DNA of 64,000 bases from Dillenia suffruticosa. Lineage: Eukaryota; Streptophyta; Magnoliopsida; Dilleniales; Dilleniaceae. The notes under the pieces are model-generated. The model searched no databases and had not been told where the DNA came from. It saw only the letters and a program-made list of their open reading frames with translations. Shown here in pieces: positions 4,948 to 54,351 of this stretch (the stretch's first letter is position 1; the number at the start of each line of letters is the position of its first letter). The translations under genes and the position numbers were made by a program. The stretch is taken from NCBI GenBank assembly GCA_033439265.1, contig JAVTVX010000015.1, positions 25,101,947 to 25,165,946 of the forward strand, given 5' to 3'.

Positions 4948-7900
4948 GAAGTGTGAAAATAAAGAAGCTATGACAAGCTATTATAAAACTTGTACAAAAT
5001 TAAATTTATTTATGAGTTATGTGTGTAATGGTGTGGATGATGAAAGTAATAACACATATCGTTATAAGTTAATAATTTATTTCCATACAGAAATAGATAT
5101 CTTATGCTTAAACGTTTGTTCAGGTCCAATTGTGCTGTGGCTGTCTTGTGGTCTACATTTTTCATATGTGGGAAATTCTTTAGTGCTATATCTTTTTTAT
5201 TTTATGATTATGGATTGTGCAATGGAAACTCTGTTTTAGAATTAAACATCATTATGAAATGATAACCAGCTTTGGTTTGCCATCCACTGATTTGTTGCTT
5301 GTAAGCATGAGTACAAACATAAATATATGAGACATGATTCAACAATATTAATTTATGACACGAAAATGAATTTATGTTTATCTTATCGGTGGTTCTCAAT
5401 ACTTCAGATTTAGCAATGAGCCATGCAGCTCAAATGTAGTCATCAATGTAATTTGCCCCTAACATAGAGACTCTAGAAAAATTTAATACAATGATTGTGA
5501 TACTGAAGTACCTGTTTAGTATCTTAGAAGCTTGTAGCATTCAAGCATCTGTGATATATCCACCAAGCGATTTGCAATTGTGTGCCCAGTCCAACGGAGG
5601 GTTTGACATGGGTGTATATTCACTTCGAAGGGTTTGTGCTTATAACTGTTTTCCAATATTATTTGTTATATGGTAGTATCATTTTCGAGTGAAGTAGGCA
5701 TGTGTAGCAATAATTGTTGATTGTTAGATTGTAAACACTAATATTATATAATTTCATCAGTCCCATTGATTTATATTTGCAATTGCTTCTTTTGCTCAAA
5801 ATACTATTAATAACATGATTTACAAGTCATATTTTCCTTTATCAACTTTGCCACTATAATAGGTGCATGACTTATATTGGTCTTACTAATATTGACAGTA
5901 ACAATGCTTCTTTTACAGGACTGGGCTGCGATACAGCAGCAGTTATCACTATTCTTGCCCACCGTGATGCAACACAGCGTGCTCTCATCCAGCAAGAATA
6001 CAAAGCTATGTATTCTGATGACCTTCTCAAACGTTTGTCTTCCGAGCTTCATGGGAAACTTGAGGTACTGGTACAATGCTCATTCTTGTGCTTTTCCTGT
6101 TTAGTGGCACGGGATGCATTTAAGTGCGACTATACATCTAATAGTGCCGCGAATTGTGTTTCATTATTTGGTTGCTATATTTGTCATATTATTTATTTTT
6201 ATTATCATTTCATGATCCGTGTCTTTTCATGTACCAGACTGCAGTTCTGCTTTGGGTTCATGATCCGGCAGCACGTGATGCGATTATAGTGAGGAAAGCA
6301 ATTGCTGTAGATGTTGTTAATCTTGGAGCTGCTACTGAAGTAATATGCTCTCGCACCCCATCCCAAATACAAGTTTTCAAACAAATTTACCATTCCATGT
6401 TTGGTGCCAGCCTGGAGGAAGACATCAAACTACGTTTAACTGGGGACATTATGAAGGTAAACTCTCCTTTTGGATCAATATTATTTGGTCTTTAATCCTT
6501 AAAAGCTTCTGAGAACAATGGTAGGAGAGATCCTACTATTATTTTTTTTTAACATGAAATTCATTTTAAAAATTTAATTTCAGGACTCATGACTATCTTA
6601 TCCTTTTGGAGTTCAGATTTCTAATTCTATGTATAGAAATACGAATGCTTCTGCAACATAACATGTGTAATTTGTGCTCTATTTTGCAAAAATAAAAACA
6701 TATTACTTATGGTGTGTAAAATTGAGATTCAGAGAAAATGCAATGGTGCAGCTTTTGCTTGCATATGTGAGCACATCACGTTATGAAGGCCCAGAAGTTG
6801 ATAGAGAGATGGCCGAAAAAGATGCAAAGATGCTCTTCAAAGCAGGTGAGAAGAAATTGGGGACTGATGAAAAGACATTCATCCGTATTTTTAGTGAACG
6901 AAGCAGGGCACAGCTAGCTGCTATAGATTTTTCGTATCACAATATGTACAAAAACTCACTTAAAAAGGTAGATCTTCCTTGTCCTCTGGTTCCATGATCA
7001 CTGATTCCTGCTTTGATACTCAGACAGATGCATTTGATTAGGCTGTGAAGAGTGAAACATCTGGATATTTTGAGTTTGGATTGTTGACAATTTTAAAGTG
7101 TGCGGAAAATCCTGCCAAGTACTTTGCTAAGGTATGCTTATGTTCTGTTTAGCTTAGTTGTTTGTTGCTTTACATGGTTGCTGTATGATTCATGTGAGGT
7201 TTTTTCTGTTTTTTTTTTGGGGGTGGGGGGGGGGGTGGGGAGAGTTTTTTATTCTCCAACATTGATTATTTTATCAAGTCTCTTTATTCTCTGGCCATAA
7301 TTTCTGCTCTGCCTAACATTGATATAGTAAATCAGAATTATTTTGAGAATCTTCTGCCAACCTAAATTTGGATGTTGTGCTTGAATTTGAATTTCAGCGA
7401 AGAAATTAGCAGGAACTGAACTTATAATTTGCCATGTTTGGAATGGGTTCACGTTTTATACAAATGACATAATTCTTATCGCCAGTCATAAAAATCAGTT
7501 TTGTTCTGGTAAAATAATATTTTGAAGGACCCCTTTCAAGGTCACAAATGGAGTAAAAAAATGGACAAAAAATGAAAAACTTTTATGAAGACAAAGATCT
7601 TTCTTTCTTTCTTTCTTTCTTCTTTATTTAAATTTTTTTTTTTTTTTTTTACTGAGTGAATTTCAATATCTGTTTTTTTTTCCCCTGCTCTTTGGAAGAG
7701 AAAACAACCATTATTAGTAAACAACATGTACAAAATAGAGTGAAGGTTGGCAGATTGGAATGTAGTGGATGATTGGTTCAAGGAGAATATTTAGATTTAG
7801 AAATAATCATATTAATGCATAAATGGGAGTGGCTCCATCTGATGAGAAATGAGGAGGAAAAAACACTAAAATGGTTATGTCAGCTGCATAAATCTTTTAC

Positions 7901-11617: not shown

Positions 11618-11962
11618 CTAGCTAGGAGAGGCACTGACAGAGGAAGGAGAAGGAGAAGAAGAAGAAGAAGGAGAAGAAGAGATGATCTTTTTGATGAGTT
11701 GGATGAGAGAGTGAGCAATGCATACTGAAGGAGGATTATCCTTATTTGAGGAGATTGTCTCTCTGAACACGGCATGAAGCCTGAGGGCCACACCAACTTC
11801 AACGCCCAGGCGTGCTTGCTCATCCTTGATGGCTTCTTCACATAGCCCACATACCCACACCCCTCCATACTTCTCCTCCACCCACCCTATGTAATCCAAC
11901 GTGCATTCTTCCCATATTCCACAACACCCACATACTGCTTTCTTCACTACTTCACTTGCCAT
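11618..11962 (-). CDS. DUF1677 family protein
   Basis: Single-exon gene of 114 codons. The N-terminal half has the plant DUF1677 signature: C-x-C-C-G (residues about 11-15), an EEC motif shortly after, then WVCGLCEEAI (about 36-45). The six or so cysteines suggest a small metal-binding or disulfide fold. The family is plant-specific and of unknown biochemical function. The last 23 residues are a Ser/Pro tract encoded by imperfect GGA/AGA-type repeats, typical low-complexity drift. The ATG at 11962 is directly preceded (in gene sense) by a GA-type repeat that is probably 5' UTR. No signal peptide or membrane segment is visible. Confidence 0.88.
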   Translation of the reverse strand: MASEVVKKAVCGCCGIWEECTLDYIGWVEEKYGGVWVCGLCEEAIKDEQARLGVEVGVALRLHAVFRETISSNKDNPPSVCIAHSLIQLIKKIISSSPSSSSSPSPSSVSASPS

Positions 11963-12110
11963 CTCTCTCTCTCTCTCTCTCGGATCAAAAAGTGTTGGGT
12001 TTGCAGATAAGATCTTTCATTGAAAGTTCCCTTGTTTTTCATGGCATTTTCATGTTCATATAACTGAGTAGTTTCTGAGAGAGAGAGAGAGAGAGAGAGG
12101 AAATATCTTT
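11963..12110 (-). repeat. Two CT/GA microsatellites upstream of DUF1677
   Basis: (CT)n at about 11963-11980, directly 5' of the start codon on the minus strand, and (GA)n at about 12078-12099. They probably lie in the 5' UTR and promoter of the DUF1677 gene. Confidence 0.6.
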
Positions 12111-20541: not shown

Positions 20542-22058
20542 TGGTGTGTCGTCAAATAATTAAAAATAAAATTACCTATTTCATTAAAGACAAGCTTAGG
20601 ATGAGCAGGGTCGAATTCACAAGAAACGGTAAATTTATCTATTTCAAGGAAAATGAAAATATGAGAGATTTGAGAGATGATCTAAGTCGAACAAAAATAA
20701 ATAAATCAATGAAAATTAATTAAAATAAAACAACAAAATAATACCGATTAAAAAAGAGTATCAACGAGAGAAAATCTAGTTAAATGAGTTATTTCCACTT
20801 TAATGTATTTGATTGATTATCGATACAAAAATTACTCGATATTATACGAATAAATTGGTTATAACCGCTAAATACCACGAAACGACCAATCTCTCCTTAC
20901 TTTTTCGGTAATCAAGATACCATTGTTAATTACTTCTCTAATCGAAAGATAACCCAAAAAATTCTCGTTAGATTTAATGTTCCGATAGTATTACGATTTA
21001 GAGAAACTCAATTCTAATCAATAAATTTCAATATGAATTTATTTAAATTAGATTATCTAATCTCTTGATATAAATCTTACCGCTTGCGAGATCATAAAAT
21101 TATATCAATTACTACTCTATTAAAAACACACAAAATTTACTGTTTTTAAATGATTGTAGATTATTCTAAAGTTGTTAAACATAAAACTCTATTTAACAAT
21201 CTCAAAACAATCATAAACATTAAATATAGAGATTAAATAAATACCCATAAATATCAAGCAAATAAGATCATTTAGATATCACAATCATCATTTATCAAAA
21301 TTTCAATAATCTTTTGACTAGAAAAATAAATTAATATGAAAAGAAAACTCACTAAAATGCTTTATTGATGTGGAAGAAAAATGAAATTACAAGAAACATG
21401 TCTCTTCCCGGCTGTAACTTTGTTTCTCCTAATATGTGTCTCCTTTTTTATTCCAAAAGCAAGGAAGAAAACTCCTTGAAGCTGTCGTCTGCAGCCTTTT
21501 TGGGGCTGCACAACCAAAAGTGCCTCCAAAAAGTGTGAACACTCATATATATATATATATATAAGAGTAGTAAACTCTAAAATTTTTTCCTTATTCAAAT
21601 TGGTTTTTAAGAAAGAATAAAATTTTCTAAAAAATAATATTCTAGAAATTTAAAATAAAAGAAAAGTTTCTAAAAATTTGAGATTTACATTTTCAAAAAT
21701 TCATTTTTTTAAATATTAGGAATGAAATAAAAATTTTCAATATCTCCAATTCCATCCGAAATTTCTCTTGAATATGCAATTAAGAAAGGAAATTTTACTA
21801 AAGGAAATTTTACTACAGTAAATTTTCAAAACCTTTTACTTGCCTTTTGAAATCCACGTGCCAACTTGCTAATGAAAGAGTATTGCTGTCCAATTTTCTA
21901 TATTTTACAAAATTGCTCCAATTTAACTCATTTTTCTTCATTTTTCATAATAAATATCCTCATAAATCAAATGTCATAAAACATAAATATTAGTGTAATA
22001 TTTATTCAAAAATAAAACAAAACCAATCGCAAATATTACATTTATTTAACTCCTATCA
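20542..22058 (-). repeat. 3' LTR of the Athila-like element
   Basis: The 1517-bp LTR is bounded on the plus strand by TGGTGTGTCG and CTATCA. It aligns along its whole length with 25462-26455 plus 28891-29393. It is the uninterrupted version and gives the empty site for the CACTA insertion in its partner. A (TA)n run lies at about 21546-21562. Confidence 0.9.
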
Positions 22059-24160
22059 AATTCCCCCACATCAATATGATGCTTGTCCTCAAGTATCTCT
22101 AATTAAAATAAAATTAAAACTATCCAACCTATTTTTTTCTTCCAAGCATTCAAGTCAACAATTACTATAAGAGTCAAACCAAAAATACAATCTAAATAAC
22201 AAATATTTTACAGCGATCCGCACTAAAACAACCACTATATATCCCAACAGTCACTTATGAAATCCAAACAATAAGATTCGACAATTCTCTCCATAGGATC
22301 ACTCTTATGCACTCGAAAGGGTTAAGAATATATATATATCTCTCAAATCAATAATATGAAATGTCATTACCATATGTTTACAAATATATCAAATCTCCAC
22401 CACTTAAAAATTAAAATTTCATGTATCAATTTAAAATATCAATTTAAAGGTCTTTTATTTTGTAACGGGGTTTGGGTAAAGGGTAGGATAAGATGATATT
22501 CAAGGGTTAAAAATGTACCAAAAGAAATATATAATTAGCCAAAAAATTTTTTTATAGCATTGATCGATCTTTGCCTCAATAAATAGCAAACAAAATTGAC
22601 TTCTTGCTCTACAAATGAATAAACAATAGCAAACAACATACAAAAATGTCAAATGCTTTCTCAATTTTCCATAACTGAAATGTAAATAAATTTTCAATCA
22701 AGATACAACACTTCTCTTTCTCATCCACTTTTTTTTTCTTTTTCTTTTTTTTTCATCATTTTTTTTCCCTTGCCTTTTTTTTCTGAACATATATCATTTT
22801 CACGAAAATGTCAATATCAAAATTTCAATCATCACCTTCTTATTGAGACGAACATAAAACCAAAATCATGCAATTAAATATATATACCTTTGGTACTAGG
22901 GTTTGAAATGAAGACTAAAATCAAAGGTTAGGTGTTGTATTGAGTAGGTTTTAAAGAAGAAAAATGGAAAAGACTCAAATTGGGTTAACTACGGGAAGGT
23001 AGAGATTTTAAGAAAGCCAAAAATGGGATAGACCCTAAGTGCCTTTATCATTTCGATGCACGAAATCCTAGAATGTGGTCTCGAAATGTATAACAATGCA
23101 AGTTCTAGAATGTGTAATCCAAGTATGATAATCACTCATCAAGAAAAATAATCTCGAGCACAAAGAATGAATTTGCTCGTTTATGACTCAAAATCTCACT
23201 TTTTAAATAGGGTTTGTGTCAAATTGTTGCATGTTCATCATTCAAAGAAAACTATTAAAGATATGAGCAGCCATTTTAAGCACAAAATCCATTGATACAA
23301 ACCATTTTTCATATATCTCTAGCTAACCAAATAACATACGTCAACTAAGAAAGTTCGGAAAATTTTTTTTTTTTCAATTTTTTTTTCATTTTTGAAGAAA
23401 CAAAATTTAAATTAATATAATAAAAAAACAAATATAGTGTCAAAAATCAAAACAAAGAGAAAAACACCTAATATCCCCCCACACCTAAATCATACATTGT
23501 CCTCAATGTATGCTCAAGTTAAGAGAGATAAAAAAAATGTATAAATAAATCAAATAAAATAAAAAGAACAAAGAACAAAGAACAAAGAACAAAGAACAAA
23601 GAACAAAGAACAAAGAACAAAGAAATAAAAGAGAAATGTGAGAACAATACTCCCCTAGGGTAGAGTGGAGAATGGAGAAACAATTCCAATGAACTCGAGA
23701 AAAGAGCTATGACGTGGACATGCCGTAATTATTAAGCATTTCGGTCCATTATTGAGGTTTCAAGGTGGAGAGAAAAATGCAAGTGTTAAAATAGAAGTGA
23801 AATTCGCCTCTCTCTCTTTTTCTCTCTCTTTTTTTTAGAAGTGAAGTGTGGTTAGGATATGGACACGCCCTAAATAAAGAGTGTTTCTGGTCATGCAGTG
23901 AAATGTATACTCATTTGACAGAAATGGAATTCACTTAGGGCGTGGGCACGCCATAAGCAAGGAGCAAATCTGTCCATGTGATCTGTGTGGGCAGAAATTG
24001 ATTTGATTTAAGGCGTGGACACGCCCTAAGCAAGAAGTACTTCTGTATTTTTTTTTTAAATCAATCATAAATCAAGCTAACATAAATGATAATAAATAAA
24101 CAAAAATAAAAATAAAAATAAAAATAAAAATAAAAATAAAAATAAATAAATCATAAAGAA
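22059..24160 (-). other. Non-coding 3' internal region of the Athila-like element
   Basis: It begins, in element sense downstream to upstream, with a polypurine tract (minus strand GTGGGGGAATT). No protein was recognised. It contains a run of about eight 7-bp units (agaacaa, about 23562-23623), a run of 6-bp units (aaaata, about 24100-24146) and four palindromic motifs listed separately. Confidence 0.7.
23710..24029. repeat. Four spaced palindromes of GGCGTGGACACGCC type
   Basis: Copies lie at about 23710-23730 (degenerate), 23852-23873, 23934-23957 and 24008-24029. The best copies read TTAGGGCGTG, a short centre, then CACGCCCTAA, so each could form a hairpin of about 9 bp. Spacing is about 75-140 bp. 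They stand out as GC-rich islands in AT-rich retrotransposon sequence. Confidence 0.75.
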
Positions 24161-34460: not shown

Positions 34461-37247
34461 TATTGTTGAAAAATAAACTTGATATTTATATGGACACAAA
34501 ATGGTTACCTACATGAGTCACAATTATGAAGAAGTTTGAAGATTAGTCATATTAAAAACTATGGAAATAAGGAGGATCATTGGAGTTCAATAGTCTCCCC
34601 AAAAACTAAGAAGTCAAGATACAAAATATAGAATATGTGCAAAATGCAAAATTCAATGATTTTTTTGTGGTTAAAAAATATTTTCATATGATTTTGTCTC
34701 TTTAGTTGTTGGGTTGTTTAATCTTCTCAGTCCTAACATTGAACAATTGTATTAAATGTGGGTGTCAACTAGAGTACTATATAAACCCACCTTGGTGCTG
34801 AGTTGTAATCAAGCCTCAAGCAATAATCATTATTTCTTAGATTATATCTTCTCTTCCCTCTTCCTTCTTGTGAGTATGTGAGTGATCTCTAGCAAAGTTC
34901 AAAATTTCTGAACTTACTTTCCATCAAAGTAGTATCAGAGTTAGGATCAGTTTACAAGATAGCTTCAAGGAACATCTCCATCGCATTCAAATATTGGAAC
35001 CTTACAAAGCTCAATTATGAAAACTGGGCTCTAGGAATGAAAGCAATTATTGGATCCCAATGAGTATGTGATATTATTGAAAGAGGTTTTGGAGAATCTC
35101 AAACTTCTTACTCTACCCGATAACAAATAGAAGCAATAGAGAATGAGAGAGAGAAGAATCGTACTGCTCTTATAATCATTCATCAAGGATTGGATGATGA
35201 TATGTTTGAGAAAGTCGCACACAATACCACTGCCAAGCAAGCTTGGGATGCTTTGAAAAGCACCCTCACTGATGTTGATAAAGTGCAGAAGGTCATACTT
35301 CAAACTCTTATAGCTGAGTTTGGAGCCTTTTCTATGAAAGATAATGAATCCATCTTGGATTACTTCACTTGGGTCAAGCTATAGTGAACCAAATGCAGAG
35401 GCCTGGTAATGATCTCAAAGATCTTCATGTGGTGGAGAAAATTCCGCGCTCCCTCAATTCTAAATTCAATCATGTGTTGCTTGCAATTGAAGAATTCAAA
35501 GATTTAGAGGAAGTGACTATTGAACAACTTAATAGTTCTTTGATTGCCCATGAAGAAAGAATGAATTGAAGCAATGGGGAGCAAAATGAACAAGAATTAA
35601 AAACAAGGGTAGTTGTCAAAGGGAAAGGATCAAGCAAACAAGAAAGAGGCTAATCAAAGGAAGAGGTTGAGCTCGTGGTCATGGTGGACATGGTCAATGA
35701 AGAGAACTAGGAGATCAAAATTCCCCTAATGTAAACCAAGGAAGCAGAAGAGTTAGAGGCTGAGGAAGAGAGACAAAACAACAATGAAAGTTACAATAAA
35801 TCTCAGATCCAATGCTATGCATGTCATAAATTTGGTCATTTTTCTTGGGAATGTGAAAGTAGCAATAAGTTAAATGAAGAGACACAATTTGTTGAATTGA
35901 GGGTAGAATATGATTCAAGACTATTGTTGTCTCTTGAAAAAGAATCAACCTCAGAACTGAGCACATGGTACTACTTAAACAATGGTGCTAGCAATTATAT
36001 GATGGGAGATCGAAACAAATTTGTTGATCTAAATACCAAGATAATAGGATATGTTCGATTCAAAGACAATACAAAGGTAAAGATTGAAGGTAGAAGTACC
36101 ATTCTATTCAAAACTATAAAAATGGTGATCATAAATTGTTAGTTAATGTCTCCTGTATTCCCAAGTTAACTAATAACATCTTGAGTTTGGGTCAACTTTT
36201 AAAAAATGGGTGCAAAATTTATATAGAGAGTAGATTTTTATGACTTAAGAGATCAGAATGCTAAATTGATAGTTAAGGTTCCTATGACAAATAACAGATT
36301 ATTCTTACTAGATCTTCAAACCACGAATTTTATATGCTTTGAAAGTTTCAGTTCAAAAAGTATCATGGCTTTGGCACATAAGATTCGGGTACATTAATTT
36401 CGTGGATCTCAAAACCTTAGGACTAAAAAGAATGGTGAAGAGAATTCTAACCTTAAACCACCCGGATCAAATTTGTGAAGGATATATGTTCGGAAAGCAT
36501 ATGAGGAAAAGTTTTTCAATGCAATCAAGTACTAAAGCCACCAAACAACTTCAGCCGGTTCATGTTGATGTCTACAAACCTATCAACCCTCTGCCATTCG
36601 ATAAAAGCTCTTGCTTTCTAACTTTCATTGATAATTATAGAGCAAAAACTTGTGCATTTGTTTTAACAATAAGTTTGAAGCTTTTAATTTATTTTAAAGA
36701 TTTGAATCCCAAGTAAAAAATGAGAGTCGGTATAAAATCCAAATTTTTAGAACCAATATATGTGGAGAATTTTCTTCCAATGAGTTCAATAAGTTTTTGA
36801 GTCTCAAGGAATTAGGCAGCTAATGACTGTTTCGAGATCTCTCTAATAAAATAGTATAATAGAAAGGAAGAATAGAACCATCCTCAACATAACAAGATTA
36901 ATGTTGGAGAGTAAGAGTATGCCCAAGCAGTTTTGGGCCAAAGCAGTAGCAAGTGCAGTTTATTTGTCGAACCGCTATCCGACCAAGAGTTTGGACTTCA
37001 TAACTCCGTAAGAAGCTTGGAGTGGTCGGAAACCAAGTGTTGCACACCTGAAGGTTTTATCGATAACCTATCCACAAGTCCCGTAGCAAGAAGAATCAAG
37101 TTGGTTGACAGAAGTTGGTCTTCATCGGGTATGACGAGAGCTCCAAAGGTACAAGTTGTTGGACCCTAGAATCAACAAAATAGTGATCAACCAAGAAGTG
37201 GAGTTCAATGAAGAGTCAATATCGGAATGGGGCCACCAACGTTTTGT

Positions 37248-37300
37248 TGGTCTAGTGGGAAGTGCACTAACGCTCCACACTAAAAATTGGGGTTCAAGTC
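37248..37300 (+). other. SINE-like pol III promoter segment inside copia B
   Basis: TTGGTCTAGTGGGAAG (A-box-like, from 37248) and GGTTCAAGTC (B-box, 37291-37300) lie at tRNA-like spacing. The surrounding roughly 150 bp does not match copia protein sequence, so this may be a small tRNA-derived SINE inserted in the integrase-RT linker. Confidence 0.5.
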
Positions 37301-37483
37301 TTGGTAGTGGTAAAAACGACGTTGAGAGAGCTCCATCCCGATTGAAACTCGACAGCAGTTAGACCGAAATTAGTTAGAGTAAAGTTCCAGATACTCGGCG
37401 GTAGACTAAATCCAGGAAACAAAAAAAAAAATATCGAAATGGAGCCAATTTGAGATAAGCTCATATGATTACTTCCTAACTAA

Positions 37484-38611
37484 TGTTAAATAATAATTTC
37501 TAATTGATAAGTTTGAAATATTAATAGTCCTTGGACTAATAAAGAATTTTCTTAGCATTCAGGTGAAGCAATCCAAAGGAGAGATTTTTATTTCTCAAGA
37601 AAAATATATAATAGATTTACTCAAAAAATTTTGCATAAACAATTGCAAACCAGTAGCAACTCCTATGGCTTTCAATGAAAAATTACAACAAAATGATGGA
37701 GCTGAAAAGTGTGATTCAAATATTTATAGAAGCCTTGTAGGTTCTTTGATTTATTTGGCAAATACAAGACCTGATGTTGTATATGCTGTCAGTTTAATAT
37801 CCAGATTCATGAATGCTCCAAGCAAGCTTCATTTTGCAGCAGCTAAAAGGATACTTCGATACCTTCAAGGGACTAAAATGCTGGGAATCAAATATTTGAA
37901 AGAAGAGGACAGTAAGTTGGCTGATTTCACCAATAGTGATTAGGCTGGAAGTCTTGATCATAGGAAGAGTACTTCAGCATATGTTTTTTTGTCTAGAATC
38001 TAAAATCATTTCATGGAGTTCAAAGAAGCAAAGTTCAGTTGCATTGTCCTCAGTAAAGGCTGAATATATTGCAGTAAATGAAGCTGTTCGTGAAATAGTC
38101 TGGTTAAGGAGAATTTTAGTTGACTTATAGCAAAAAGTTACAGATCCTAATCTTATTTATTGTGACAACAAGTCTACAATTTTAATGACCAAGAATCCAA
38201 TCTTTCATGGAAGATCAAAACATATAGAGCTGCGACACAATTACATTCGTGACATGGTTCAAAAGAAGGAAATTTATTTGGACTTCATTTTGATCACATA
38301 TCAACCGGCAGATATTCTTACAAAGAAAGTATCCATCCAAAAACTTCAGTGGTTCAAGGATATTATGAAGATCACAAATTAAGAGGGGGTGTTAAATAAT
38401 AATTTGTAATTGATAAGTTAGAAATATTAATAGTCCTTATGTTTTTCTAGACTTATTAAAGTATTTTTAGGTTCTCTAAGTCTTATTTTTCCAAATAATC
38501 TTTTATTATAAACTCTACTATAAAAACATGCTCTGAATATGAAATTCAATTCAATGAAAAATAGAGCAGAATTTTCCTCTTCTAAAAAATTTCCTTTCTC
38601 TTTCTCCAACA
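37484..38611 (+). mobile_element. Nested, internally deleted Ty1/copia element
   Basis: The left end keeps only about 55 bp of LTR (TGTTAAATAATAATTT...). The right LTR is complete (38390-38611, TGTTAAATAATAATTT...CCAACA, 222 bp) and is preceded by a purine tract AAGAGGGGG. Between them are the reverse transcriptase C-terminus and RNase H (about 37563-38382): YRSLVGSLIYLANTRPDVVY, ISWSSKKQSSVALSS and AEYIAVNEA. The flanks are a perfect 5-bp duplication ACTAA on both sides (37479-37483 and 38612-38616). The reading frame is fairly well kept with a few stops, so this is younger than its host element. Confidence 0.92.
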
Positions 38612-42835: not shown

Positions 42836-43633
42836 TGCAAATGGCTCTTGACATGAGCTAGAGTAAGGTCTTTTACGTCCATGAGCTCTAGAACTGACTT
42901 TGGTGTTGCTCCTAATAATACATAAGAGAAAGAAAGATCAAAGAACGAACTTAGTTCGAAACCATAGAGAGATGATGGGCTTACTTTCATGGCCACCGAG
43001 AAGGTCAACGGCATGGACAAAACGAGCATGGAGAGAGGAAGTCCAACGCATCCGAGGAGCTCTAATGTTTCTCTTAGTTAGTCTATTTGGCATCGTGAAT
43101 CCAGAACCAGATCTCATCATCACATCTGTAGAACTACCATCATGGCCATAGGGACTTCTTTGGTGTAAGTGGCTAAACTGATGATGATGGGGTTTTAATG
43201 TCTCCCTCGATAAGCCATTAAACCTCGGCGTTGCACCAAATCTGTAAGCTGAAGAAGAAGAAGGAGAAGAAGAGGGGTATTTCATTTGATAGACTGGAAT
43301 TCCTTTGATGGGTACTTCTAGTATTGATGAAACTGAAACCCCATGATTTGTTTGTTCTGTGAGGTTAATATTGTTGTACATAAGTGGACGATTGTTATCG
43401 ATAGGGCAAGAGGTCCCGGCTTCTAGAGCAAGTGAGAGGTGAGTGTCAGCTCCTGGAATATTGGATCTTAAAGACCCTTGGCTGTTTGATCTGAGGCCGT
43501 GATGGAGATTGAAGGCGGTGTCTTTGTTTTGGTCGAGCGAGGAAGGAGCACTGTTTGGAGGGCTAATGTGAAGTGAGAGATCAGGGATTTTATTTGAAGA
43601 GTGGTGCTCTTTAGCAAACTCTTTTAGGGACAT
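41741..43633 (-). CDS. KAN: KANADI-like GARP transcription factor (exons 1-4; 3' end unresolved)
   Basis: Nuclear DNA-binding repressor family that sets abaxial identity in lateral organs. Exons on minus are 43633-42985, 42911-42835, 42341-42296 and 41882-41741, with GT-AG borders and consistent phases (1, 0, 1). The N-terminus has the KANADI motif PDLSLHISPPNSAPSS (about residues 18-33), and mid-protein has PIKGIPVYQ. The GARP domain starts at APRMRWTSSLHARFVHAV and continues through LLGGHE into exon 2 (ATPKSVLELMDVKDLTLAHV, then KSHLQ) and exon 3 (MYRTVK). Exon 4 ends WSNSS, where family members normally continue with a W-containing segment and finish near LEFTLGRP. That terminal exon was not found downstream. 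Motifs favour the KAN1/KAN2 side of the family, but this is not certain. Confidence 0.9.
42797..42831 (-). repeat. (GA)n microsatellite abutting KANADI exon 2 donor
   Basis: On the gene strand, (CT)n starts right after the exon 2 donor (CAG|GTTTCTCTCT). It is thus the first 40 bases of intron 2. Length changes here could affect splicing of the GARP domain. Confidence 0.8.
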
Positions 43634-44080
43634 TTTCCTCGAGGAAAGCTTCTGTTTCTTCAGGAAAAAAATGTTATAGGGGAACCATGATTTTCAAGAC
43701 TATCAGGTGGGAATCAGAGGGTGGCTCTTTATTTTTGTGAAAAAGAAAAGCTTCAGTGAGAGAGAGAGATGTGGGGTATTAGAGAAATTAAAGGAGGAAA
43801 GGGAGAGAGACGTGGGGTATTAGAGAAATTAAAGGAGGAAAGCAAAGGATGGGAAGGAAGATGGGTTGGTTGCATTCTCTACTACCGAGGGTATATCAAA
43901 GAAAATGACAGTCCAAGAAAGTCCTCTCTCTCTCTCTCTCTCTCTCTCTGTCAAAAATAGTGAAAGATCGAACAGTTGGATGTCCAATACCCCGAATAAG
44001 ACGGGTTAAAATTTTCATGACAGAGGACTGCTTCCCAATGGGATTCCACTCTCTCTCTCTCTCTCTCTCTCTCCCCCCTT
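43634..44080 (-). promoter_or_regulatory. KANADI 5' flank with CT tracts and a short tandem duplication
   Basis: Upstream of the ATG (higher coordinates) lie a 42-bp direct tandem duplication (about 43762-43801 and 43804-43842, differing at about two positions) and CT tracts at about 43921-43949 and 44050-44073. These are likely 5' UTR and proximal promoter. No TATA box was assigned. Confidence 0.5.
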
Positions 44081-45900
44081 CACATTATCAGTTCCCTGTT
44101 CACATGAATTAAATGGGTGGGCGTAGATTCTCTCATCAGAGCACGGATAAACATACACTGTGGACGACCTAGAAGCGTGTAGACCCTAAAGTGTTGTTTG
44201 TTTGCTTCCAAATTCATTATGATATCCAAAACCCTAATTCCATGCAAATATACCTTATTGTATTAGTCTCCCTTTCAATAGTAAACAAATATTTCCTTCC
44301 ACACCCCCCCCCCAAAAAAAAACAACTGTCTGTTCTTTTATTTTATTATTAATTGCTGTGTCATCCCCACATATGTAATCTTTCCAATGACTCCAAATAT
44401 CTCCCAATCATAGGGTGGGTTCTCAAAGATTGGTGCACATTAACAAATATATTACTCATTTTTACCGGATTTAAATTATAACCTGTTAAATGTAACTATT
44501 ACAACAGTGGGAAAAAAAATCAGAATGGAATTTCTGTACCAATACTACATGGGGGGGGGGAACATGAATAGTTGTGTTATACATATCACAACCTAATACA
44601 AAAGTGAAGCATCAAAACTCCAAAACCTATAGTAGTTCATACATATTTATTGAGCTCAAAGATACCTGGTTCTTTTGCTATGCACCTCCCCAATTTAAAA
44701 TGAAAATAAAAATAAAAATTAAGTAAGTACATTAGAGGTAGTAAAAAAATTGTAAAATAAAACTCAAATCAAAAAGAGCGTCCTCCCTTGGTTGCCTTGT
44801 TTTCTGCGGTATTGGGATGTTACTGATATCTTTGTGGTAAATCAAATTGAACAGAAGGGGGCATGGGTTTGGCTTTGTTCATTTTCAAAATGTTTTTTGG
44901 ATGTTAAGAAGACCGAAGAACAGTGAAGCAGCATGTGGATTGCGAGAATAGCTTTATGCTCAATAAGTGAGGTGGAAACATATTCAATAAGAGCTTGAGA
45001 ACATATTCAAAGGGAAACATAGTATACAAAGTGGAAGAGGAAGATAAAGAATCGCTATCTAGGAGCATGGTTGGTATAGTTAGAGCTCCTGAAGTTATCC
45101 CCTCTCTCCATACTCACTTTGCCATGCCTAGAAATTTTGAGTGTTTCTGTACATCCTATGGTAAGAAATATAGTGCTTCTCACCCTTACATAGAAGAATG
45201 AGTTGGGATCTGTTCATGTGATGTTGATTAGTTAAGTGAACCGTATGAAGAGGTATATGATAGTGTGATGGACCTAACTTTTCTCCTAAGCTAAACACAT
45301 ACAACATCCACTTAGACACCACAACCAAAATCATAAGCCTATTAAGCCACTTGTCTCTTAAACTATTCACCCCTCTAGGTTTTTACAAACACTCTTTTCT
45401 ATTCTTTTTTTCCTTCGTCCTGAACTACCGACAAATTTTAATTTTTTTATTCATAATTTAACTCATTTTATTTATAATATTTTTTAAATAAAATAAAAAA
45501 TTTTAATAATAAAAATAATATTTTATAAATAAAAATTAAATTTTCTCGATAGAAAAGATCAATTTTACTTAATTTTAAATAAATCAAATTTCAATTTTTC
45601 CTTTGAAGATTACTCCCAAGTTTACCATGGTAGGTAGAATTAACGTTAGCAAAATTGTCCCGAACGTGGGACTGATAAAATAATGCTATTTCATCGGATT
45701 CTTAATTTTAAAATTAAAAAAAAAATTTAAAAGAATTAACCTAAAAAAAAAATTTATAATATTTAAATTAAATTAATCGAATCAGATTTAAATAAAAAAA
45801 TCGTGATTTCCATTTTATCTGCGAACCCGGGGCTTCTCGTAAATCCCAATTTTTGGTTTTTGTCTCGAAATCGGAGCAAAACAAAGGAAGGGAGCCTCGA
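44081..45900. other. Spacer between KANADI and SEC61A promoters
   Basis: The two genes are divergent. No gene was recognised; short A/T and C/G homopolymers lie near 44310 and 44551. Confidence 0.45.
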
Positions 45901-45965
45901 GGTCAACATCAAAAATAAAAATTTAAAAAAAATCCCTGCCGTGTACACGTTAGAATGATATTCAA

Positions 45966-46030
45966 CGTGGCAAATCATCATTGGTTAAGAAGCGTGGCTC
46001 AGGAGACACGTGGTGATGTCGTCAGACGTG
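45966..46030. promoter_or_regulatory. ER stress response element (ERSE) upstream of SEC61A
   Basis: CGTGG (45966-45970), nine bases, ATTGG (45980-45984): read on the minus strand this is CCAAT-N9-CCACG, the exact ERSE consensus bound by NF-Y plus an ER-stress bZIP (bZIP28/60 in plants). Nearby are GCGTGG (45992-45997), CACGTGG (about 46008-46014) and AGACGTG (46023-46029), further ACGT-type bZIP sites. It lies about 220 bp upstream of the end of the SEC61A 5' UTR exon, which suits a gene known as a target of the unfolded protein response. Confidence 0.75.
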
Positions 46031-46089
46031 AGAGTGTGTTTAAAAATTTGGAAAGAGAGTTTACAGATGTGATCGAATAGAGTCGGTGA

Positions 46090-46203
46090 GAGCTAAAAGT
46101 ATAACCCTTTGTCTCCAGATTTGCTATGAGGACGTCCGATCTGAGGGTTTTCCTCTGATTGTTACGCCCTTATATCTCCCTCCCTCCCTGTGAAAACCCT
46201 AGT
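46090..46203 (+). other. SEC61A 5' UTR exon and start of leader intron
   Basis: A CT-rich untranslated exon ends at the donor AGT|GTAAGT (GT at 46204). The leader intron runs to the acceptor GCGCAG at 47386, about 1.2 kb. The start codon follows 30 bases later. A leader intron is common in highly expressed plant housekeeping genes. The 5' end of the exon is approximate. Confidence 0.65.
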
Positions 46204-47386
46204 GTAAGTCCCCTTCGATTTCTTCTATTCTGCGTTCATCTGATCTAAGCTCTCTTCGTGTCTTGATCATGATCTGCTCGTCTGAATAATTGATTCGTGT
46301 TTTTGTTCTTCTTCGTTTCGTTAATCTTAATTTTGGGGTTGCCATTCCGAGATTCGATGCTCTGGGATTCTTATTTTGATTACTAAAAATTTTAGATCTT
46401 GGAGGTGTTTGTGCTGAATTGCCATATTTCTGTTTCAGATCTGTATTTTAAAACATTTCATTTCTAACAATTGGAAGCTTTGCAATCTAAATTATGTAAT
46501 GATGATTTTGGCCTGAATTTTTTTTTTTTTTTTTTTTTTTTGTGTGAGATATATCGTTCTTCCCATGTACTATTTGTTTCTGAGTGTTTCAATTTATGGA
46601 ATTCTCCAACAGAACTCACCTGTTTCAAATTCATAAGCGAATTCGCGATATATATAATATATATATATTTCTGGGGTTTTCAGCTCAGACTAGAAGGATT
46701 TTGAAATTTATTTATGCTCTTTGTTTCCTGTAGCATTTAAGCAAAGACCTTCACTGGTTGTTAAGCTTGTGATCTAATTTAGGCACTGAAAATTTGATAT
46801 TTTTTCATCGAACCAACGTTGTTTTGTTATGGTTTATATGTTTTGCGTTCTGATTTTCATGTCTGCCTGCTTTAGAATATCTGTTGTTTTCAAGCACTCA
46901 TTATGGAAACTTTTTATACTGTGATGCAATACAAGTTCGGTGATTGGAAACTATATTCCTTATATGATTGCCTCCAATGGTCAACTGTACTGCAGTGAAA
47001 ATTTTTTTCTTTTCTTATCTTAATTTTTAGTTACATTTACTACTGAAACCTACTTTTACAAAAAAGTAATGTATTTCCCATTCCGGGGGAAATACCCCCC
47101 CCCAACAAATCATTTGAGGTGGTTTAAAACAATCAGATGTTTGGAAACAATTCAAAGTTCTAGTGGGAACAAGCACCTCATTACCCCAACTCTGCATTGT
47201 CTTGGGGTTTTGGTGAATAAGGATTGCAGGGATTCTTCGTTGAGTGCAATTAATTATTATGTGCAAACACCTATAGCAATTTGATTTCTGACTCTGCAAG
47301 GCTGGCAGTTTCCTTGTACTTACAGTAGTGATTCATTTGATCAAAATTAGTACTGATGGTTAAACTCTCTTCCTTTCTGTGCGCAG
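46204..47386 (+). other. SEC61A leader intron
   Basis: T-rich intron in the 5' UTR, with a run of about 24 T at about 46519-46541. No coding potential. Leader introns of this type often enhance expression in plants; that role here is inferred. Confidence 0.6.
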
Positions 47387-47416: not shown

Positions 47417-50400
47417 ATGGGAGGAGGTTTCAGAGTACTGCATCTTGTGAGACCATTTCTTTCATTTCTGCCTGAAGTTCAGAGTGCTGACAGGAAGATC
47501 CCATTCAGAGAGAAGGTCATATACACTGTGATATCTCTATTCATCTTCCTCGTATGTAGCCAGCTCCCTCTCTATGGAATACATTCCACAACAGGAGCCG
47601 ATCCATTCTACTGGATGCGTGTTATCCTTGCATCAAACCGTGGGACAGTGATGGAGCTTGGGATTACCCCTATCGTGACATCAGGGCTTGTGATGCAACT
47701 TTTGGCTGGATCGAAGATTATTGAAGTTGACAACAGTGTTCGGGAAGATCGAGCACTCTTGTAAGTCTGTTGATCTGTTTAATTATAGTTTACACTTCAT
47801 TGTGTCCAGAAAACTTGTATAAATAACATGTTGCTGAAGTCCTTCTTGCCCTTTATACATCGTTAGTCCTGTCATCTCCTCAAAATTTGACTATTTACAA
47901 ACCTTTGGGGAATGCCACGAACATCAAATTTAATGACATGCCTATGTTTTGGAGAAGCTTAAAATGGGAAAATCTTATTGAGCATCAATCCATTGACCAA
48001 TGATAGTTCCTGCGCATTTCCCTGGTCATTGTGGACAATTCTAAACACCTTGCTTCATTATGGTGATATTGTGGTGGTGAGCCTTTGCCCGAGTTGTTGG
48101 GGGATCAGTCTTATTTATATTTCTCCTTTTCTGATGCTTGTTTTTAGACATATTATGCTTACCTCTGCCATGGTTTTCAGGAATGGTGCACAGAAATTGT
48201 TGGGCATCTTAATTGCTGTTGGTGAGGCCGTTGCCTATGTTTTGTCTGGCATGTATGGCAGTGTCAGCCAACTTGGTGTTGGGAATGCTATTCTTATCAT
48301 TGTTCAACTTTGCTTTGCTGGCATTATTGTGATATGCTTGGATGAACTTCTCCAGAAGGGTTATGGATTGGGATCTGGTATTTCCCTGTTTATAGCCACA
48401 AACATATGGTAAGCTCTACGATTTGCCATGATTTTGATTCTGTGTGGTGCATTTGCGATACATAGTTTTAATTCTGGTTGGTCTTGCAGTGAAAACATTA
48501 ACGGGAAAACATTTAGCCCCACAACCATTAATTAAGCCCAATAACTTGCTATTATTTTGAGTCTGTGTGTGGTGCATTTACAATACATAATTATAATTCT
48601 GGTTCACCTTGCAGTGAAAACATTATCTGGAAAGCATTTAGCCCCACAACTATTAACAGTGGGCGTGGAGCTGAATTTGAGGGTGCTGTCATTGCTCTAT
48701 TCCATCTGCTTATCACTCGGACAGACAAAGTTCGAGCTCTGCGAGAGGCATTTTACAGACAGAATCTTCCAAATGTGACAAATTTACTTGCCACAGTGTT
48801 GATCTTCCTCATTGTCATCTACTTCCAAGGTTTCCGTGTGGTTCTGCCCGTAAGATCAAAGAATGCCCGTGGGCAGCAGGGTTCTTATCCCATTAAGCTT
48901 TTCTATACCTCCAACATGCCTATCATCCTGCAGTCTGCTCTTGTCTCCAATCTGTACTTCATCTCACAGGTACCATATTTTAAACAGTTATGATGAGCTG
49001 TGTACTTGTAATATGAAGATAATGTGGAGTTTGTGATTTTTTGCAGTTGCTTTACAGGAGATACAGTGGAAATTTCTTTGTTAATCTGTTGGGCAAGTGG
49101 AAAGAATCTGAATATGGTGGTCAGTCAATTCCAGTTGGTGGTCTTGCTTACTATGTAACAGCTCCTTCAAGGTGATTAACTCCATATTTTTTCCATTAAT
49201 TTTTTATTATTATTTTGAATGATACCATCTTTTAACTTTTCTTTTTTTTGCTTTTATGCTGTCACTGTCGATGATTGTAAGAGTTGTCCTCTTGGCCTGA
49301 ATCTCTTGTGTGTTTGTGGTTCTAATGCAGCTTGGCAGATATGGCTGCCAATCCATTCCATGCGCTATTCTATTTGGTGTTCATGCTGTCAGCCTGTGCT
49401 TTATTCTCAAAGACATGGATTGAAGTTTCTGGATCTTCTGCTAGAGATGTGGCAAAGCAGCTCAAGGTATTGTTTTTTGAGTTTAATCTTTTCATGTCTT
49501 GCAATTTTGTCTTTGCTCTTTCAGTGAATGCTTTATGTTGTTACTGGTTTATAGTCTTTATTTTTCTGAAGTTTTATGCAAAGTTGTGTTGGAGCAAGGA
49601 TAAACTGAATATCAAGAGGGCAAAAACTGGTTACCCCTTTTAACTAGACCAACTCGAGCTCTAAAATGTCTTGAACTTGGCTCCTTATGAGCTGTAATCA
49701 GCCTTAGTTTATTTATACATGTTTATTACTCATAAAAAATTGCACAATGTTTATATTTAGAATTTTTCCATTCTTAATTACTTGATTTAGGAAAAGACTT
49801 GGTTTGTTCAAATAATATTAGCATTGAGCCATTAAACAAACCTGTTCAGTCTATACAGGCTGAGCCTCGTGATGTTTAAGATTTGCTCATATAAAATTAA
49901 GACTCATGTTGAGGTTCGGACTTGGTTGAATAGTAAATAATCAAGCCTGAATCTCTTATCGAAAACACAAGCTTGTATGCAATTGACTGCATTCTTTTTT
50001 AGAGGCAACTATTTGTTCTGTTCATAATTTTGTAAGTGTTTCAGAAAAAATTCGGTCCCTTTTGGGGTTTGATCATATTTTTCCCCCCGCCTGTTACCAT
50101 ACGTAGATTCAGCAAGTAGTCCTTGCTTCTTTGAAACAATTCTAATAGTTTTCTTTATTGTTTTTTCATTGTACTTTACAATTGTCCGGGTTTTAGCCTT
50201 TTTTAATACTTGTAACTTACTTGTTTGTCATCTTAAAAAATTCACCATAATTTGTTTATAGGAATGCTATGCTATACTACACTCTTGATGCAATCCATGT
50301 ATTGTCAGCGTCAAAATAATTTTGGCTCTAGAAGCTGAGATTTGTTGATTGATGGAAGTTTTTTGGTTTCAACTGAGCTTGACTTTTCCTCTTGGTATCT

Positions 50401-50734
50401 GTTGAGTGCATTTCCATTTGTTTTAAGTTTTTTCCTAGTGAGATTCTCCCATAATGTTTCGGAAATTGGTTTCACTGTTATGATCATTCTGTAGGAGCAA
50501 CAAATGGTGATGCCTGGACATCGGGACTCAAATTTGCAGAAGGAATTGAATCGCTATATACCAACTGCAGCTGCATTTGGAGGAATTTGTATTGGTGCTC
50601 TTACAGTGTTGGCTGATTTCATGGGTGCCATTGGCTCGGGTACTGGTATTCTACTTGCGGTGACTATAATTTATCAGTACTTTGAGACATTTGAAAAGGA
50701 GAGGGCCAGCGAACTGGGTTTCTTTGGCTTCTGA
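47417..50734 (+). CDS. SEC61A: Protein transport protein SEC61 subunit alpha
   Basis: Channel-forming subunit of the heterotrimeric ER translocon, through which signal-bearing proteins enter or insert in the ER membrane. Coding exons are 47417-47760, 48181-48408, 48615-48969, 49047-49171, 49331-49466 and 50495-50734. All borders are GT-AG and the total is 475 codons plus stop, the normal family length. The N-terminus [20 protein letters not shown] and the internal [20 protein letters not shown] and [20 protein letters not shown] are near-invariant SEC61 alpha segments. Cytosolic loops include [19 protein letters not shown] and [20 protein letters not shown]. The C-terminal exon ends in [12 protein letters not shown]. 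Ten membrane segments are expected. Intron 3 carries a tandem duplication of the exon 4 border. Confidence 0.97.
48431..48540 (+). pseudogene. Decoy pseudo-exon in SEC61A (duplicated exon-4 border)
   Basis: About 110 bp here repeats the sequence at about 48556-48660 at an offset of 125 bp, including the acceptor CTTGCAG|T and the first 40 or so bases of exon 4. In frame from the exon 3 donor it would read [14 protein letters not shown] and then TAA (48533-48535). The real copy reads [14 protein letters not shown] and stays open. The upstream copy is therefore a decayed duplicate acceptor. Confidence 0.88.
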
Positions 50735-52418: not shown

Positions 52419-54351
52419 CTAATCATCCAGACAGGTCTGTGCGTCCAGTGATTCGAGAGTCATACATGACCTTGTCTCATCCAAAATATTTCCTCCCGCA
52501 CTAAATGCCTGTTCCACCGCCATAGTTGAGATAGAAGTTGCTAAAATTTGTTTAGCAATATATGATAATATAGGAAAATTATTTGCATACTTTTTTCATC
52601 ATTCTAGAATTAAAAAATCCATTGAAAATGGATAGATACTAAACTCAAAAGAAGTTAAATATAAATCAATTTCAGATATAGAATTTGAATCTCTAGGTTT
52701 TTTTTATCTTTGAAATAATAGTTGTTCAGTTTTGTTTATTTTAGGAAATTCCTTAATATTTATAAATTGAGAAAATTGTTAAGTAGAATTATCAAATGTC
52801 ATACTAAATTCAATATATATATCAAAAATTAATTTTCTAATATAATTTATTTTTTGGTGCAACAACATAATCATTATTTCTAAATTTTTAACATAGAAAG
52901 TTAAATAATCAAGTAAACTATCTAATTTACATCTAGGATAAAAAACAACAGTAACAAGATAAATGTCAGGAATTTCACAAAAATAATTACACAATTTTAT
53001 TTTCATTAAATAAACTGTATCGTTTAAATTTTCATCATTTTCATACTCTTGCATAACATTTACAATATTAATACTTTGTAGTAAAAATAATGAAAATGTA
53101 GGATAACAAATACTAGACAATGTATATGTAGTATCATTAAACACTTTTAATAAATTTTAAATTTTTTCACAAATAGTCAATTGGTGTGGATATAAAATAA
53201 TAAAATTAACATTATTTGCAAAAAAAAAAAAAAGCACATAACAATTGTATATAAGAAAATAATTCATCTAATAATTCATAAGTTGAATTCCAACGAGTTG
53301 GATTATCTTTAGAAAATCTTTTAGGTCTTTTTCCATTTTCCTTACAAAATCTAGCCCAATATTTTATTAATTGTGGATGATTCCATAAATAAGAAATTGC
53401 TTTTTTAATTGGGGTAAGATAAATTTTAAGAGATTTTAATCCATCTTAAATACATAAATTTAATACATGACATGAACATCTTATATGAAAAAGTTTACCA
53501 CCAAAACTAGGTTTATAAATATTTTCTAAATCTCTAATGGAAACGATATTAGTAGAAATATTATCAAAACTAATAGAAAAATTTTATTCACTAAATAATA
53601 TTCTTATAAAATTGAACTAATAATTTTATAAATATTTTCAGCCATATGTTTTTCATTAAAAACTCTAAAAGCAATGATACGTTTTTGGAAATTTCAATTA
53701 TTATCAATCCAGTGACACGTAATATCCATATATGAATGTATTTATCAACGATCATTCCAAGTATCACTACATATAGAAACTTGACCATTAAAATTTTTTA
53801 AAAGCTTTTGTAAATTATTTTTCTCCATTTTATAAAGTTTATGAGTTGTACATGTAATAGTAGTTCTAGGCACACATTTTGCAGAAGGATTTAAAGTATT
53901 TTGAAAATAATTTATTTTTTCACCAAAACTAAAAAATAAATGTTCAATAGCAATCATTTTAGTTAATTTTTCTCTATTTTTTTATCAGAATAAATAAAAA
54001 GAGAAGAAAGATTAGAAGATGCAAATTCGGATATTTGAGTTTGTGTTTTATCAATACCATCTTCAGTTGGATGTTTGTTATTCAAATACTTTCTAAATGT
54101 CTCATATCATCTATTTTTGTTGAATTTGAATTGTTGTCCACAGTGATTGTAAATAACTTGTATTGAATTATTCGGTAAACGATTTTTTTTAAATATACCT
54201 TAAAAATGTTGGATTTCAATATTTTTTCTTTTTTTACACACATCTCTTCTTGATCATCATTTTCACCTTCAAGATTGATGTGTTGAGATTCTTGTATAGG
54301 AAAATTCTCACATTTTGAAAAGATTTCCCAGCTTTCTCTTGCCTCTATCAC
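52419..54351 (-). pseudogene. hAT transposase remnant
   Basis: Minus-strand, broken by frameshifts and stops. In gene order: an acidic N-terminal stretch (54351-54082, where the BED zinc finger would be), VSICSDTWND (about 53775), HVLNLCIQDGLKSL (about 53470-53430), NPTRWNSTYELLDEL (about 53310-53265), and VVFYPRCKLDSLLDYLTFYV (about 52960-52895, the LDPRxKL motif). The C-terminal dimerisation domain is STMAVEQAFSAGGNILDETR (about 52535-52475), ending at a TAG at 52419-52421. The order and motifs match plant RICESLEEPER-like hAT transposases. It is not functional. Confidence 0.9.

Follow-up and report, generated by a model that had tools for sequence, protein, structure and literature searches.

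An exact ERSE-I element upstream of one of the three SEC61A genes of Dillenia suffruticosa

We analyzed a 64,000-nt stretch of the Dillenia suffruticosa genome (C15:25101947-25165946), hereafter the window. It carries a SEC61A gene on the plus strand. When its six coding exons were joined, they gave 475 residues with no internal stops, and the SecY domain (PF00344, E = 1.6e-78) and the plug domain (PF10559, E = 1.2e-17) were both found in Pfam searches, together spanning the full length of the protein. The best solved chain for the protein was a Sec61-alpha, aligned over residues 6-474. Thus, the gene identity given in a preliminary description of this DNA was borne out by the open frame, the domains and the structure match. 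The gene and its promoter are laid out as follows.

45966-45984, minus strand: ERSE-I, exact match (CCAAT 45980-45984, N9, CCACG 45966-45970)
46040-46046, plus strand: TATA-like TTAAAAA, by reading of the sequence
46204-47386, plus strand: probable 5′UTR intron, GTAAGT...GCGCAG, 1183 bp, with splicing predicted from its sequence
47417-50734, plus strand: SEC61A coding region, 475 amino acids, six exons
47417-47760, 48181-48408, 48615-48969, 49047-49171, 49331-49466 and 50495-50734, plus strand: SEC61A coding exons, with GT/AG introns

Transcription of SEC61A would start at about 46065-46080. The distance from the ERSE to the ATG is 1433-1451 bp. Given the probable 5′UTR intron, the element would be about 1.4 kb from the ATG and yet only roughly 80-115 bp from the predicted start. 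The preliminary description had placed it in the SEC61A promoter. This is supported, as it lies upstream of an intact gene with an ER function, in what would be the proximal promoter if the TATA-like box and the 5′UTR intron are correctly predicted. The idea that the promoter is a repeat inside the window was rejected, because the promoter matched only itself there. A short upstream reading frame (MRTSDLRVFL, 46126-46158) is present in the presumed 5′UTR exon and would be transcribed only if the start precedes it. Between SEC61A exons 2 and 3, we also observed a diverged copy of the intron end and the start of exon 3 (48423-48531 against 48546-48656, 95 of 111 columns identical). The duplicated intron end provides a TTGCAG decoy acceptor, which ends at 48489 and lies 125 bp ahead of the true acceptor.

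Several other features were seen in the window. A minus-strand reading frame at 42938-43693 is divergent from SEC61A and had no Pfam match for the exon alone; we take it to resemble a KANADI-type GARP factor. Copia-type retrotransposon fragments lie at 35735-37940, with Pol_BBD and gag_pre-integrs above the cut-off and RVT_2 just below it. There are also annexin exons at 5819-6492 (plus), a DUF1677 protein at 11621-12016 (minus) and a sub-threshold hAT-like transposase match at 52782-53156 (minus).

The minus strand at 45966-45984 reads CCAATGATGATTTGCCACG, which is CCAAT-N9-CCACG without a mismatch, as the preliminary description had claimed, and agrees with the plant form CCAAT-N10-CACG. It is the only exact ERSE-I copy in the 64-kb window. 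When CCAAT-to-CCACG spacings from 0 to 30 were scanned in the window, 9 was the sole spacing present; ATTGG-N16-CCACG occurred once, at 20854, in a scan of the same spacings. Dinucleotide shuffles of the window had a mean of 0.04 exact copies, with at least one copy in 3 of 100 shuffles. The shuffles underestimate the background, because the window has seven forms with at most one mismatch (the exact one included) compared with 1.51 expected, and because exact copies are numerous genome-wide. The whole genome (596.357 Mb) has 1174 exact ERSE-I copies (598 + 576), and the reversed pattern has 328 (150 + 178). At the former rate, a 64-kb stretch is expected to contain 0.126 copies and a 500-bp stretch about 0.001. 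Many of the exact copies, among the matches listed, share a CCAATAGACGAGCACCACG-like sequence (e.g. C1:4308589-4308607). These copies are probably a repeat family carrying the motif, which would inflate the genome count.

Compared with published ERSE-I (CCAAT-N9-CCACG in mammals, CCAAT-N10-CACG in plants), the window element has the same consensus and spacing and lies near the predicted start of an ER-function gene. There is no sequence difference. Its orientation is minus relative to SEC61A, as in one calreticulin/calnexin-family pair of the same genome. It is a well-placed ERSE-I in an expected kind of gene, and a new instance of a known element.

Other ACGT- or CCACG-type sites surround the element, as given by a motif scan.

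45946-45950, plus strand: CACGT core, upstream of the ERSE
45993-45997, minus strand: second CCACG box (CGTGG on the plus strand), across the CCAAT at a distance of 8 bp
46006-46013, plus strand: ACACGTGG, a G-box/ABRE-like core overlapping a CCACG box
46024-46031, plus strand: AGACGTGA, one mismatch from UPRE-I TGACGTGR

The three further ACGT- or CGTGG-type sites of the preliminary description are real, being CGTGG at 45993-45997, CACGTGG at 46007-46013 and ACGTG at 46026-46030. Minus-strand CCACG boxes lie at 45966, 45993 and 46009, and CACGT or ACGTG cores near the ERSE lie at 45946, 45965, 46007-46012 and 46026. That description was silent on CACGTG doubling as a G-box and on the probable 5′UTR intron. 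The site at 46007-46012 has the CACGTG core of a G-box/ABRE, from which ABA or light control does not follow. We gave the near-UPRE at 46024 no weight: AGACGTGA is weak as a UPRE-I because one-mismatch matches in the window (37 against 41.4 expected) are no commoner than chance. The only TGACGTGR in the window is at 23710. UPRE-III (TCATCG) occurs 17 times in the window, once in the region upstream of SEC61A, at 45691. The motif scan of the window found no ATTGGTCCACGTCATC, GATGACGCGTAC, ATTGGN2CACG or GATGACGTGK, and no pUPRE, pUPRE-II, ERSE-II of either form or XBP1-type site.

We compared the clustering of sites with simulations. With 65-bp windows, the highest count observed was three merged sites, which 3 of 300 simulations also reached. 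In 66-bp windows the maximum was four sites, and none of 500 simulations exceeded three (10 reached three). In 90-bp windows it was five sites, again with none of 500 above three (18 reached three); the sizes of 66 and 90 bp were picked after the 65-bp result, and the simulated sequences were poorer in sites (mean 41.6) than the real window (66). The cluster is suggestive support for the UPR reading from a partly post hoc test.

As a positive control, we surveyed the calreticulin/calnexin family in the same genome. Twenty Pfam PF00262 matches fell by position into a set of 11 loci, of which three are fragment-like. For each of the 11, we scanned the 3.5 kb preceding the first matched exon. The loci were tested at the family level, since calreticulin and calnexin labels would be guesses. 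Exact ERSE-I was present upstream of four of the 11 loci, compared with 0.0069 expected per region at the genome rate, from which upstream regions may deviate in composition. One pair (C4 and C18) has it at -1191 and -1202 in plus orientation, overlapping a TGACGTGG UPRE-I. The other pair (C15 and C9) has it at -1090 and -1217 in minus orientation, as SEC61A does. The members within each pair are alike, so there are perhaps two independent cases rather than four. The excess over the expected rate indicates that the element marks genes for ER chaperones in D. suffruticosa, in either orientation, and that classical UPR-type genes of the species use it. The other seven loci had no exact ERSE-I in the 3.5 kb scanned, which counts against the UPR reading. 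We also scanned spacings in 14 upstream regions (49 kb in all, from the 11 loci and three SEC61A genes). Spacing 9 gave five matches and spacing 11 gave two, both from the C15/C9 pair, whose loci each have CCAAT-N11-CCACG in addition to the exact ERSE. No other spacing from 0 to 20 was found in these regions, and the reversed pattern did not occur in them.

Two further SEC61A genes were found in the genome, at C2:299315 and C5:7560911. Over residues 1-115, each of them is identical to the window protein at 108 of 115 positions. In the 3.5 kb upstream of their ATGs, there was no ERSE-I of either form, ERSE-II, UPRE-I or UPRE-II. Thus, ERSE-I is confined to one SEC61A copy of three. The idea of conservation raised in the preliminary description fails among the paralogues, and the copies without it count against the UPR-promoter reading. 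The upstream regions of C2 and C5 can be aligned to one another (75% over 1882 columns), but neither aligns with that of the window gene. As C2 and C5 are a close pair whose upstream DNA is unalignable with that of the window copy, the claim is limited to one copy rather than refuted. The SEC61A protein gave no relatives in two further scans, both of viral or prokaryotic collections and so not informative for plants.

Published work gives a context for these observations. ChIP-seq peaks of bZIP28 and bZIP60 have plant ERSE-I (CCAAT-N10-CACG) at their centre, and the element is bound in the promoters of BiP3 and ERdj3B under tunicamycin (PMC8752741). In mammals, CCAAT is bound by NF-Y and CCACG by a stress bZIP (PMC3645738, PMC8301375), and Sec61a1 is among the XBP1s targets (PMC8301375). 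In N. benthamiana, NbSec61-alpha-1 transcripts increase like those of ER quality-control genes, and the UPR genes examined there each had at least one UPR element in a promoter survey that took the 1000 bp before the start codon (PMC11022800). Microarrays cited in PMC6928836 had Sec61 translocon genes up during systemic acquired resistance. Neither PMC8752741 nor PMC7766468 has the word sec61 in its main text, and Arabidopsis SEC61A is therefore not documented there as bound or induced. No ERSE was named for a plant SEC61A promoter in the passages of mainly open literature covered, and we make no claim that such a case is unpublished.

Two known systems are close to the present case. Plant BiP promoters (soybean soyBiPD, Arabidopsis and potato BiP3) also have an ERSE no more than a few hundred bases from the start, and BiP is under stress-bZIP control (PMC4606518, PMC7347581). 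The soybean BiP ERSEs lie at -552 to -175 (PMC4606518). However, soyBiPD is a different gene with repeated ERSEs and a UPRE-I, whereas the window SEC61A has one exact ERSE. NbSec61-alpha-1 and mammalian Sec61a1 belong to the same family as the window gene and are UPR-induced (PMC11022800, PMC8301375). The element that drives them is not given in the passages covered, and for the window gene induction is predicted.

In our judgment, the window ERSE is likely the proximal unfolded-protein-response promoter element of one of three SEC61A genes, which would be controlled by NF-Y and stress bZIPs. This reading of the control is the best one because published plant ERSE-I is bound by bZIP28 and bZIP60 (PMC8752741). 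NF-Y would occupy the CCAAT box. When the ER is stressed, one factor of the bZIP28 type and one of the bZIP60 type would bind the CCACG half at its nine-base distance, and perhaps also the adjacent CACGT and CCACG boxes. Their binding would raise transcription of the window copy, and the C2 and C5 copies would provide the basal translocon, a division of labour that we infer, as we do the start site, the factor binding and the induction.

The same cluster might instead be a G-box/ABRE-type module for ABA, light or other bZIP/bHLH factors, with the ERSE spacing secondary. ACGT cores are read by many plant factors, and ACACGTGG at 46006-46013 is one of only three such 8-mers in the window. Nevertheless, this leaves unexplained both the CCAAT at exactly 9 bp and the use of spacing 9 upstream of calreticulin/calnexin-family loci, where nearly all other spacings are missing, and we consider it unlikely. 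Less probable still is a random exact match before an ER gene. The 1174 genome copies, some of them in a repeat family, predict about 0.126 per 64 kb; the search behind the preliminary description was free, and two of three SEC61A copies lack the element. However, the expectation falls to about 0.001 in 500 bp, and the motif is enriched upstream of a second ER-chaperone family, which makes a chance match very improbable.

A more specific extension of the UPR-promoter reading can be put forward only tentatively, and we regard it as rather doubtful. A second CCACG lies across the CCAAT, 8 bp off in SEC61A and 9 bp off in the C15/C9 pair. Possibly, the SEC61A copy (N8) and this calreticulin/calnexin-family pair (N9) share a composite module for ER stress, CCACG-N8/9-CCAAT-N9-CCACGT, with stress-bZIP boxes on either side of one NF-Y site. 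Such a module would make the window gene the stress-inducible translocon copy among the three SEC61A genes. The shared arrangement comes from one gene and one pair and was noticed after the fact.

The window ERSE leaves the known UPR pathway unaltered, and the contrast among the three SEC61A copies is a modest extra. Surveys that take the 1000 bp before the start codon would overlook this element, which is farther from its ATG. If confirmed, the UPR-promoter reading would put translocon supply under the same switch as the ER chaperones of this plant. It would predict stress induction of only one of the three SEC61A copies, with duplicated genes splitting basal and stress roles.
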